DNA from: Candidatus Eisenbacteria bacterium
GTDB taxonomy: Bacteria > Eisenbacteria > RBG-16-71-46 > SZUA-252
DNA length: 48,052 nucleotides
Assembly: GCA_035712245.1 (NCBI GenBank)
Contig: DASTBC010000267.1
Coordinates: 1-48,052, forward strand
Direction of reading: 5' to 3'
The position numbers and the translations under genes were made by a program. Position 1 is the stretch's first letter. Each line of letters opens with the position of its first letter. The notes under the pieces are model-generated. The model had not been told where the DNA came from. It ran no database searches and saw only the letters and a program-made list of their open reading frames with translations. Shown piece by piece: positions 18,601 through 23,296 of this stretch.

Positions 18601-18619
<19 letters not shown>
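17570..18619 (+). CDS. Exported protein of unknown function
   Basis: 349 aa, starting GTG with AGGAG seven bases upstream. A signal peptide (about 1-30) is followed by a Thr/Ala/Pro linker, then a soluble domain: [27 protein letters not shown], a segment with [16 protein letters not shown], and [12 protein letters not shown]. The C-terminal part ([17 protein letters not shown] ... [14 protein letters not shown]) resembles the beta-strand-rich DUF3108/LolA-like lipoprotein-carrier fold by pattern only. It is probably periplasmic. Its last 19 bases overlap the convergent aceA 3' end. No specific function is claimed. Confidence 0.75.
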
Positions 18620-20088
<1,469 letters not shown>

Positions 20089-20123: not shown

Positions 20124-21731
20124 TCAGTGAGGCCTCGGCGGCTCGAGCCGCTCGTAGGCCGGTATCGTCAGGAACGCCTCCAATTCCGGAGACGTGGAGA
20201 GTCGTTCGAACAGCTCGCGCGCTTCGGGGAATCGCCCGCCCCGGAAGCGCTCGGGGCCGGTCTCCTTCTCGATTCTCGCCATCTCCTCGTCCGCGATCGC
20301 GCGCAGGAGCGCCGCGTCGACGACGCGCCCATCCTCGAGCGCCGCCCGATGGTGGATCCACTGCCACACCTGCGCGCGTGAGATCTCCGCGGTCGCGGCG
20401 TCCTCCATCAGGTTGTAGAGGGGGACGCATCCGAGGCCCCGGAGCCAGGCCTCGAGGTACTGGACGCCGACCCGGACGTTCTGGCGAAGCCCCTCTTCGG
20501 TTCGGGTGCCGCGCGGGACTTCGAGGAGCTCGTGGGCAGAGACGCGGACGTCCTCGCGCAGGCGGTCGAGCTGGTTGGGTCCCGACATCACCGCTTCGAA
20601 GACCTCTCGCGCGACGGGGACGAGCCCGGGGTGGGCCACCCAGGTCCCGTCGTGTCCGTCGGTCACCTCGCGGAGCTTGTCCGCGCGGACCTTCTCGAGC
20701 GCGATCCGGCTCGCATCGGCGTCGTTCCGGATCGGGATCTGCGCCGCCATCCCTCCCATCGCGTGCACGCCGCGGCGATGGCACGTGCGGATGGCGAGCT
20801 GCGTGTACGCGCGCAGGAAGGGCTGCTGCATCGTCACCTGCGAGCGGTCCGGCAGCACCGCCGCGGGATCGTCCCGGCGCGTCTTGATGAAGGAGAAGAT
20901 GTAGTCCCACCGGCCGCAGTTGAGCCCCGCCGAGTGCTCGCGCAGCTCGTACAGGATCTCGTCCATCTGGAAAGCGGCGGGGAGCGTCTCGATGAGCACG
21001 GTCGCGCGGATCGTGCCGCGCGGGATTCCGAGCGCCGCCTGCGCGGCGAGGAACACGTCGTTCCAGAGCCGGGCTTCGAGGTGGTGCTCGAGCTTGGGCA
21101 GATAGAAGTACGGCCCCGTGCCGCGCTCGAGGAGCGCGCGCGCGTTGTGGAAGAAGTAGAGCCCGAAGTCGAAGAGACACCCGGGCGCCAAGGCCCCATC
21201 CACCAGGAGATGGCGCTCGGGGAGGTGGAGCCCGCGGGGACGCACGAGGAGGGTCGCCGTGCGCTCGTTCAGGCGGTACTGCTTGCCCGTCGCGGGGTCC
21301 GTGTACTCGATCGTCCCGCGGATCGCGTCCCGGAGGTTCCTCTGCCCCTGGAGGTTGTTGTCCCACGTCGGAGCGTTCGAGTCCTCGAAGTCGGCCATGA
21401 AGCAGTTCGCGCCGGAGTTGAGCGCGTTGATGACCATCTTCCGGTCGACGGGGCCCGTGATCTCGACGGTGCGTGTGGTCAGGTCGGACGGGATCGACGG
21501 CCCCTTCCAGTCACCCTCCCGGATCGCGCGCGTCTCGACGAGGAAGTCGAGCGGCGTCCCGGCGTCGAGACGGTCCCGGCGCGCGGCGAGCAGCGACTCG
21601 ACCGTGGGCCGGAAGCGCCTCGTGAGATCGGCCACGAACGCGAGAGCGTCGTCCGTCAGGATCTCTTCGTAACCGGCACGAATCGTCCCTTCGATCTCGA
21701 TTCCCGTGCTGTTGTCCGCGCGCGTGACCAT
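20124..21731 (-). CDS. aceB: Malate synthase A
   Basis: 535 aa from the ATG at 21731. It condenses glyoxylate with acetyl-CoA to malate. Motifs of the A isoform are clear: [12 protein letters not shown] (112-123), RPRGLHL (164-170, with the catalytic Arg), the [16 protein letters not shown] stretch with the metal-binding Glu (about 248), [11 protein letters not shown] (273-283, metal-binding Asp), and [10 protein letters not shown]. Length is normal for the A form. An upstream in-frame ATG at 21800 would place the start inside the operator dyad region, so the internal ATG is preferred. It leads the aceBA operon and diverges from an ScfR/RamB-like regulator. Confidence 0.96.
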
Positions 21732-21740
21732 GACAAGAGT

Positions 21741-21846
21741 TTGACAGCATGGTTCAGGAAAATCCAGATAATTTATTGCTGTAACACAAATTACAGCCAT
21801 TTCACTAACTGTGTCCAGTTGCTGTAAATCAGTAAATCATGTAAAC
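21741..21846. promoter_or_regulatory. Operator/promoter region between aceBA and the ScfR-like regulator
   Basis: An exact 7-bp dyad, GCTGTAA (21778-21784) and TTACAGC (21791-21797), is separated by six bases. TTGCTGTAA occurs at 21776-21784 and again at 21819-21827/8, and a related TTGACAGC lies at 21741-21748. GTAAA recurs at 21832 and 21841. The segment is strikingly A/T-rich for this genome. These are plausible binding sites for the adjacent regulator controlling aceBA and itself. Binding is inference from the divergent arrangement and from RamB/PrpR precedents. Confidence 0.65.
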
Positions 21847-21853
21847 TCCCGGT

Positions 21854-23296
21854 ATGGGACGCGAGACCACGACGGGTCTTGGAAAGCGCGTGCGGGCCTT
21901 GCGCTTGCGGGAGGGGCTCACGCAATCGGCGATGGCGGCGCGGCTTGGGATCTCGCCTTCCTACCTGAACCTGATCGAGAGCGACCGCCGTCCCCTGAGC
22001 GCGAATCTTCTCCTGGCTCTTGCCCAGGCGTTCAGCCTGGACCTCCGATCCTTCGCGGGAAGCGTGGACACGAAGCTCGTGGCCGACCTCTCCGAGGTGT
22101 TCGGGGATCCGCTCTTCGAGGACCGGGCTCCGAGCCAGCGGGAGCTGGGCGAGTTCGTCGCTGGAAACCCCGAGGTCGCGCGGGCGGTGATCCACCTCCA
22201 TCACGCCTACACCGAAGCGCGGGCCTCGGCGGAGTCGATCGCCGCCGAGGTGGTGGACCGCCAGGACCTCTCCGGCGTGGACCGCGCCGGCCTCGCGGCC
22301 GAGGAGGTCTCGGACCTGATCCAGCGCCACGTCAACCACTTCCCCGAGCTGGAGGCGGAGGCCGAGCGCGTCGGCGCGGACGCGAAGCTGCACGAGCACG
22401 ACTTCTTCGAGGGAATGGCCCTGTACCTCGAGCGAAAGCACCGCGTCCGCGTGCGCGTCCTGCGCATGGCGGAGATGAAGGAGGCGGTGCGGCGCTTCGA
22501 CCCCGAGCGGCTGGAGCTCTGCCTCTCCGAGGTGCTGCGCCGGGGCTCGCGCAACTTCCAGCTCGCCCACCAGGTCGCGCTGCTGACCTGTCCCGACACC
22601 CTCGACCGGATCGCCTCGGACTCCACGCTCACCTCGGCCGAGTCGCGCGCGCTCTGCCGTGTGGCGCTGGCCAACTACTTCGCCGGCGCGCTCCTCATGC
22701 CGTACGAGGCCTTCTACCGAGCCGCCGAGGAGGAGCGATACGACACGGACTTGCTGGAGCATCGCTTCCGCGCCAACTTCGAGCAGATCTGCCACCGGCT
22801 CACGACCCTCAACCGAGCCGGCATGCGCGGAATCCCCTTCCACATGGTGCGCGTGGACATCGCCGGGAACATCTCGAAGAAGTTCAGCGCGACCGGGCTG
22901 CGTTTCCCCCGGTTCGGCGGGCTCTGCCCCCTCTGGAACGTCCACGCCGCGTTCCTCCAGCCGAATGTCATCCGCGCCCAGCTCGACCGTCTCCCGGACG
23001 GCACGATGTACTTCTCGATCGCCCGCACCATCCGGAAGCATCGCGGCGGATACCGCACGCCCGAGGTCATGTACTCCGTGGGACTGGGATGCGACGTGGA
23101 GTCGGCGCGGCGGATGGTCTACGCCGACGGCTTCGATCTCGCGAACCCCGCCGGCGCCGCGCCGGTGGGGATCACCTGCCGCCTGTGCGAGCGCCTCGAC
23201 TGCAGGGCCAGGGCGTTCCCCTCGATCTACCAGCCGCTGCGCGTGGACGAGAACGCGCGCGGCGTCTCCTTCTTCACGAGGCCGGGGAAGGAGTAG
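21854..23296 (+). CDS. ScfR/RamB/PrpR-type transcriptional regulator
   Basis: 480 aa. An XRE-type helix-turn-helix (about 9-63, LREGLTQSAMAARLGISPSYLNLIESD split across the motif) is followed by a long IrrE-like/DUF955 region with the family segment ALCRVALANYFAGALLMPYEAF (about 262-284), which lacks the HExxH zinc motif. A C-terminal DUF2083-like domain carries C442, C445 and C450 (CRLCERLDC), comparable to the cysteines that bind an Fe-S cluster in mycobacterial PrpR. Relatives RamB and PrpR control acetate, glyoxylate and propionate genes and sense short-chain acyl-CoA. It is transcribed divergently from aceBA, so control of the glyoxylate shunt is the natural reading. Confidence 0.9.
   Translation: MGRETTTGLGKRVRALRLREGLTQSAMAARLGISPSYLNLIESDRRPLSANLLLALAQAFSLDLRSFAGSVDTKLVADLSEVFGDPLFEDRAPSQRELGEFVAGNPEVARAVIHLHHAYTEARASAESIAAEVVDRQDLSGVDRAGLAAEEVSDLIQRHVNHFPELEAEAERVGADAKLHEHDFFEGMALYLERKHRVRVRVLRMAEMKEAVRRFDPERLELCLSEVLRRGSRNFQLAHQVALLTCPDTLDRIASDSTLTSAESRALCRVALANYFAGALLMPYEAFYRAAEEERYDTDLLEHRFRANFEQICHRLTTLNRAGMRGIPFHMVRVDIAGNISKKFSATGLRFPRFGGLCPLWNVHAAFLQPNVIRAQLDRLPDGTMYFSIARTIRKHRGGYRTPEVMYSVGLGCDVESARRMVYADGFDLANPAGAAPVGITCRLCERLDCRARAFPSIYQPLRVDENARGVSFFTRPGKE

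Follow-up and report, generated by a model that had tools for sequence, protein, structure and literature searches.

GTAAA direct repeats in the predicted operator of a class 2 RamB-type ScfR regulator divergent from aceBA in Candidatus Eisenbacteria

The analysed window of 48,052 nucleotides is one whole contig of a 97%-complete Candidatus Eisenbacteria genome (assembly of 3.54 Mb in 312 contigs) and carries the glyoxylate-shunt genes aceB and aceA next to a divergently transcribed ScfR/RamB-type regulator gene (Table 1). The intergenic gap of 122 bp, from the aceB start at 21731 (-) to the ScfR ATG at 21854 (+), is A+T-rich (38% G+C) and lies, as the first-pass annotation had it, between aceBA and the ScfR-type gene. 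The genome contains one full ScfR match, and the closest named relative is a Candidatus Eisenbacteria MAG (84% identity in the regulator). The ScfR gene is divergent from and adjoins aceB at all loci used from Eisenbacteria (12/12) and Planctomycetota (10/10). Alphaproteobacteria have aceB at 4 of 30 loci, and a divergent isocitrate-lyase-like gene was found in the flank at 25 of the other 26, three of these 25 with an identity of about 29%. Locus L013, which is on the same contig as L022, and the duplicates or extra copies L044–L048, L001, L002, and L043 were left out of all counts. As a separate observation, the window aceA has an insert at 19474–19590 (-), codons 167–205, made of an 18-bp tandem repeat in 6.2 copies (HANGDG-type) and located between QIEHAE and a stretch of 16 protein letters; the isocitrate lyase of the congener L022 has an insert of similar composition, and those of L037, L058, L060, L061, and L066 have none.

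Table 1. Genes and sequence elements at the aceBA–ScfR locus, in window coordinates.
Feature	Coordinates	Strand	Remarks
aceA, isocitrate lyase, downstream of aceB	18601..20088	-	named after the first-pass annotation and homology to flanking genes at related loci
aceB, malate synthase A	20124..21731	-	833 bits (cut-off 594.5)
Column of the relatives' CAATAA element (TTATTG on the aceB strand)	21768..21773	-	ATAATT on the plus strand here; putative aceB -10 hexamer
Dyad GCTGTAA-N6-TTACAGC, GCTGTAACACAAATTACAGC	21778..21797	.	0 mismatches; lineage-specific, not conserved
Box 2, expected place, 32 bp upstream of box 1	21792..21813	+	degenerate or rebuilt here; no match of the held-out profile
Extra half-site TTGCTGTAA	21819..21827	+	overlaps the first unit of box 1
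Box 1, GTAAA-8-GTAAA-9-GTAAA, conserved core of the predicted operator	21822..21847	+	units at 21824, 21832, and 21841; adjoins the ScfR start codon
ScfR/RamB-type regulator gene	21854..23296	+	XRE helix-turn-helix, M78/IrrE-like domain, ScfR C-terminal domain with four conserved cysteines

The regulator belongs to the ScfR family according to its matches to PF09856 (208.7 bits, cut-off 24), PF06114 (83 bits), and PF01381 (45.3 bits), and scores 434.1 bits against the NCBIfam RamB equivalog model NF038139, below the cut-off of 700. Its sensor part is homologous to that of PrpR (E 2.6e-85). PrpR forms a tetramer that carries a [4Fe-4S] cluster together with CoA (PMC6765138). The cluster cysteines of PrpR align with Cys358, Cys442, Cys445, and Cys450 of the window protein and are kept in 54 of 54 proteins. 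The acyl-selecting Phe155 of PrpR aligns with Ala149, and since PrpR with Ala at this place loses its propionate response (PMC6765138), propionyl-CoA is an unlikely trigger here. The column holds Ala, Ser, or Pro in Eisenbacteria and is varied elsewhere, so that no ligand can be named from this position. Crotonyl-CoA carboxylase/reductase gave four weak partial matches in the window genome, none above the family cut-off; a signal from the ethylmalonyl-CoA pathway, as in Paracoccus, is therefore unlikely in this organism, and this pathway was rejected as the signal source.

Directly before the regulator gene, and within the region covered by the first-pass annotation, though unnamed there, the gap contains three perfect direct copies of GTAAA at steps of 8 and then 9 bp, the last of which ends 8 bp before the ScfR start codon (box 1). 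The exact triple occurred in none of 5000 shuffles of the gap, and even with three mismatches allowed the window has one match, with 0.00 expected. The gaps of relatives likewise carry GTAAA-like words at fixed steps beside the regulator start. When 81 combinations of spacings were scored on 26 aceB-linked gaps (12 from Eisenbacteria, 10 from Planctomycetota, and four from Alphaproteobacteria), the 8/9 spacing ranked first with 613.5 of a possible 702 and the runner-up reached 561.5, against best spacings of 473.5–494.5 in 20 shuffled sets; this margin is not to be read as a probability, since the gaps share ancestry and had already been inspected when the unit score was devised. At six of the 26 loci, whose scores fall short of 21 out of 27, no convincing triple is present with this spacing.

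Apart from the window, 37 loci qualified, and a sequence-only profile built from 27 of them matched the 48-kb window once, exactly over box 1 (E 1.3e-5), and this array was also its sole match at E ≤ 10 in the whole 3.5-Mb genome (E 9.9e-4). No wider regulon was seen in the window genome, where the triple pattern (up to three mismatches) and the profile (E ≤ 10) each gave one site, a search in which weak sites were possibly missed. Among 47 genomes of the phylum, the profile matched four at E ≤ 0.1, three of them represented in its training set, always at the ScfR–aceB locus; it matched none of eight further genomes with an ScfR gene and none of the 35 without an ScfR match. Loci with an anchor score below 22 (L041 and 8 of the 30 from Alphaproteobacteria) were excluded from matrix and profile training and from the register test described below. 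Matrices trained solely on Alphaproteobacteria gave a mean top score of 17.1 on the 12 Eisenbacteria loci (300 column-permuted matrices, ≤ 6.5) and of 12.3 on the 10 Planctomycetota loci (permuted, ≤ 1.7), and the reverse direction, onto Alphaproteobacteria, gave 17.6 (permuted, ≤ 9.6). The top match was at the expected place in 11 of 12 Eisenbacteria, 8 of 10 Planctomycetota, and 23 of 30 Alphaproteobacteria loci, the last with the Eisenbacteria-trained matrix and counted as upstream of the regulator; this placing is less telling than the scores because permuted matrices likewise favour these A+T-rich gaps (maxima of 11, 10, and 20; Eisenbacteria average, 6 of 12). At L067 and L070 a strong array (21.7, Eisenbacteria-trained matrix) lies about 450 bp upstream of the homology-inferred ScfR start, nearer to the isocitrate lyase gene.

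The low G+C content of the gap, together with the finding that permuted matrices pick out such gaps as well, would suit a reading in which the repeats serve another factor or are mere A+T-rich promoter sequence unconnected with ScfR. We consider this most improbable. The repeat phase is common to three phyla and the register to two, the four genomes of the phylum with a profile match are all among the 12 with an ScfR match, and the array unit equals that of proven RamB boxes. The gap is very probably the operator of the divergent ScfR/RamB-type regulator, as already put forward in the first-pass annotation, and the conserved array places this predicted operator more exactly than before.

The element on which the first-pass annotation had based the operator was a different one, the dyad GCTGTAA-N6-TTACAGC with TTGCTGTAA as an added half-site. 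Both are present in the gap without mismatch (Table 1), and three copies of one 7-mer within 122 bp are unusual (79 of 5000 shuffles). For so A+T-rich a gap, the dyad as such does not clearly exceed chance: 7-bp arms around a spacer of 0–12 were found in 500 of 5000 dinucleotide shuffles, and the whole window has 149 dyads of this make, 14 with a spacer of 6. The exact copy is the only one in the window genome, and with up to three mismatches the pattern occurs five times on the forward and six times on the reverse strand (control, 34 and 26). None of ten relatives, two of them from the same genus, keeps the dyad upstream of aceB; in the ten aligned Eisenbacteria gaps only 1–3 of the 7 arm positions are complementary, and the two same-genus gaps have 11/20 and 9/20 letters in common with it when aligned on the conserved array. 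Absence of the dyad from the aceB upstream region of relatives had been named in the first-pass annotation as grounds against it; we reject it as the main recognition element, and it is probably incidental. It is accordingly very unlikely that GCTGTAA-N6-TTACAGC is a species-specific recognition sequence for an ScfR dimer, supplemented by the third TTGCTGTAA as a half-site, even though TGTAA has letters in common with the array unit; an equally good dyad arises in 10% of shuffles, and the ScfR sites that have been described are box pairs (TTTGCAAA-N-TTTGCgAA for PrpR, two near-identical boxes in Paracoccus). The half-site itself is real as a sequence and overlaps the first unit of the direct-repeat array.

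Upstream of box 1, many relatives have a second array. With box 1 taken as anchor, the highest triple score in ten Eisenbacteria loci, the window excluded, falls 32 bp upstream (17.95, against 12.58 with sd 0.89 at random offsets), and that in 22 Alphaproteobacteria loci falls at the same offset (17.68; random, 12.27 with sd 0.69); none of 20,000 random-offset draws reached the score in either group. This array, 32 bp nearer to the shunt gene, is a group trend of Eisenbacteria and Alphaproteobacteria, and no peak at -32 was seen in Planctomycetota (six qualifying loci), in aceB-linked Alphaproteobacteria (three qualifying loci), or in a set of more distant relatives. With the window included, -40 scores as high as -32 in Eisenbacteria (17.41 and 17.27), because units at -32 and -24 count for both. 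The Eisenbacteria consensus of the second-array stretch is GTTAagaTGA-AAC, and a CAATAA element, TTATTG when read on the aceB strand, follows farther upstream at -56 to -51 relative to box 1.

If CAATAA is the -10 element of aceB, the distance from the aceB start site to the centre of the array would be about 41 bp for box 2 and 73 bp for box 1, both upstream. Centres near -41 and -73 are usual positions for an activator. A sigma-70 promoter and terminator scan of the gap gave no match, and it is therefore from conservation that this candidate -10 assignment is drawn.

None of the three gaps of the genus, that of the window and those of its two congeners, has a recognisable forward box 2. Besides the window, 15 Eisenbacteria and Planctomycetota loci qualified for a profile of both boxes; built from 14 of these, without L053, it matched box 1 alone in the window. 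At the place of box 2, these three gaps have TGTAA words that run in the opposite direction, of which the window dyad looks like one form. This may be read as a rebuilt box, the genus having replaced the forward box by TGTAA repeats on the aceB strand, with the dyad as a mutated form and the regulator binding at both places. The ungapped alignment of the three gaps points this way (reverse complement GTAATTTATTGTAA in L022, similar in L014), but the alignment comprises three sequences and the letters concerned are possibly part of the aceB promoter; we regard such a replacement as possible but doubtful. It would add to, and does not exclude, the reading of the gap as a direct-repeat ScfR operator.

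The closest known counterpart of this operator is that of RamB from Paracoccus denitrificans, a regulator of the same ScfR family that is likewise divergent from malate synthase. This RamB binds a pair of almost identical boxes on either side of an 18-bp spacer; activation of the malate synthase operon on acetate requires both of them, and a class 2 RamB motif was derived from 67 genomes (PMC10370305). On the RamB strand of the published probe, box 1 (GTAAGGTTTGTCAC) lies directly before the RamB start, as in the window, and box 2 (GTCAGTATTGTCAT) 32 bp upstream, a distance that recurs at the loci of most of the window protein's relatives. Among unit pairs with a 9-bp step, the two that score best on the probe coincide with the two proven boxes, 32 bp apart, and both are absent from the mutant probe, to which RamB no longer bound (PMC10370305). 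Our triple matrices also match best on the RamB strand, where the site comprises the spacer before box 1 and the first half of that box; shuffles did as well in 1, 5, and 8 of 1000 cases for three matrices, and in 104 of 1000 for the Eisenbacteria-only matrix, a weak fit. The Paracoccus boxes consist of 9-bp-stepped GTAAG/GTCA-type units, and box 1 of the window has the same unit, strand, and 9-bp step. The window differs in having three clean GTAAA units in box 1 and no recognisable box 2, and its genome in lacking a crotonyl-CoA carboxylase/reductase match above the family cut-off. Of the features that mark class 2 RamB, the locus has the clustering with the glyoxylate-cycle operon (divergent aceB, then aceA) and, judged by its letters, a putative box of the proven type beside the regulator start (21824–21845); the second, near-identical box after an 18-bp spacer (32-bp step) was not recognised in the window and is a group trend in other Eisenbacteria. 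The suggestion that the gap might hold a recognition sequence distinct from those known in the family is thus not clearly borne out, as the array has the unit, strand, place, and repeat phase of the class 2 boxes.

The gap letters differ from the sites of the better-known family members, in line with the first-pass annotation, which had set the arms and spacing of the dyad apart from the RamB consensus. The PrpR site of Mycobacterium tuberculosis consists of TTTGCAAA, one base, and TTTGCgAA (PMC3420887, PMC6765138). Its letters allow a reading as GCAAA units with a 9-bp step, whereas the window units are GTAAA; the window protein shares with PrpR the homologous sensor part and all four Fe-S cysteines. 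No match to TTTGCAAA with up to one mismatch was found in the window, and a site of this type was discarded as the window operator. Class 1 RamB of Corynebacterium glutamicum, which like the window regulator is connected with acetate and glyoxylate genes, has the consensus A(A/G)AACTTTGCAAA (PMC4448153); this 13-bp sequence is likewise open to a reading as two units with a 9-bp step, and has no match in the gap with up to three mismatches. Both letter types of ScfR sites seem to be present in one operator in six Alphaproteobacteria (L071, L072, L074, L076, L077, and L081), where the stretch 15–32 bp upstream of box 1 has GCAAA units and box 1 itself GTAAA units. In sphingomonads and other carriers of more distant ScfR genes (L024–L036), GCAAA/GTAAA words 8 or 9 bp apart precede the start codon, and most of these genes adjoin a distant isocitrate-lyase-like gene (about 26–31% identity).

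Based on these comparisons, we interpret the gap with good confidence as the operator of a class 2 RamB-type ScfR regulator that is predicted to sense an acyl-CoA and to control aceBA and itself. As operator and promoter region of a divergent glyoxylate-shunt module, it would be bound by the ScfR protein at the 8/9-stepped GTAAA repeats beside the protein's own start codon and, in most relatives, also at the second array about three helical turns nearer to the shunt gene. As in PrpR and Paracoccus RamB, the sensor part most likely binds an acyl-CoA and carries a [4Fe-4S] cluster, and the acyl-CoA supply would set aceBA expression, with the regulator controlling its own gene too. By analogy with the proposal for Paracoccus, the regulator is expected to activate aceBA and to act on its own gene as well; it may instead be a repressor, as is M. 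tuberculosis RamB. An operator of this kind is already known, and its placing here appears well supported by the sequence comparisons; our literature searches brought up no description of an ScfR-family operator for Eisenbacteria or Planctomycetota.

Since this operator type occurs here in a genome in which a key ethylmalonyl-CoA pathway enzyme was not detected, its regulator probably has a ligand other than the one proposed for Paracoccus. From the 8/9 repeat phase one obtains a sharp, testable picture of the way in which an ScfR tetramer could occupy DNA, and the phase makes shunt operators of uncultured bacteria findable by sequence. Somewhat short of probable, but worth stating, is a single ScfR operator rule across phyla, i.e. 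G(T/C)NAA direct repeats stepped by 8/9 in two arrays exactly 32 bp apart with centres near -41 and -73 relative to the target promoter, of which the class 1 RamB, class 2 RamB, and PrpR sites would be variants, and with regulator, operator, and shunt genes travelling as a module. The repeat phasing is perhaps a family-wide rule.
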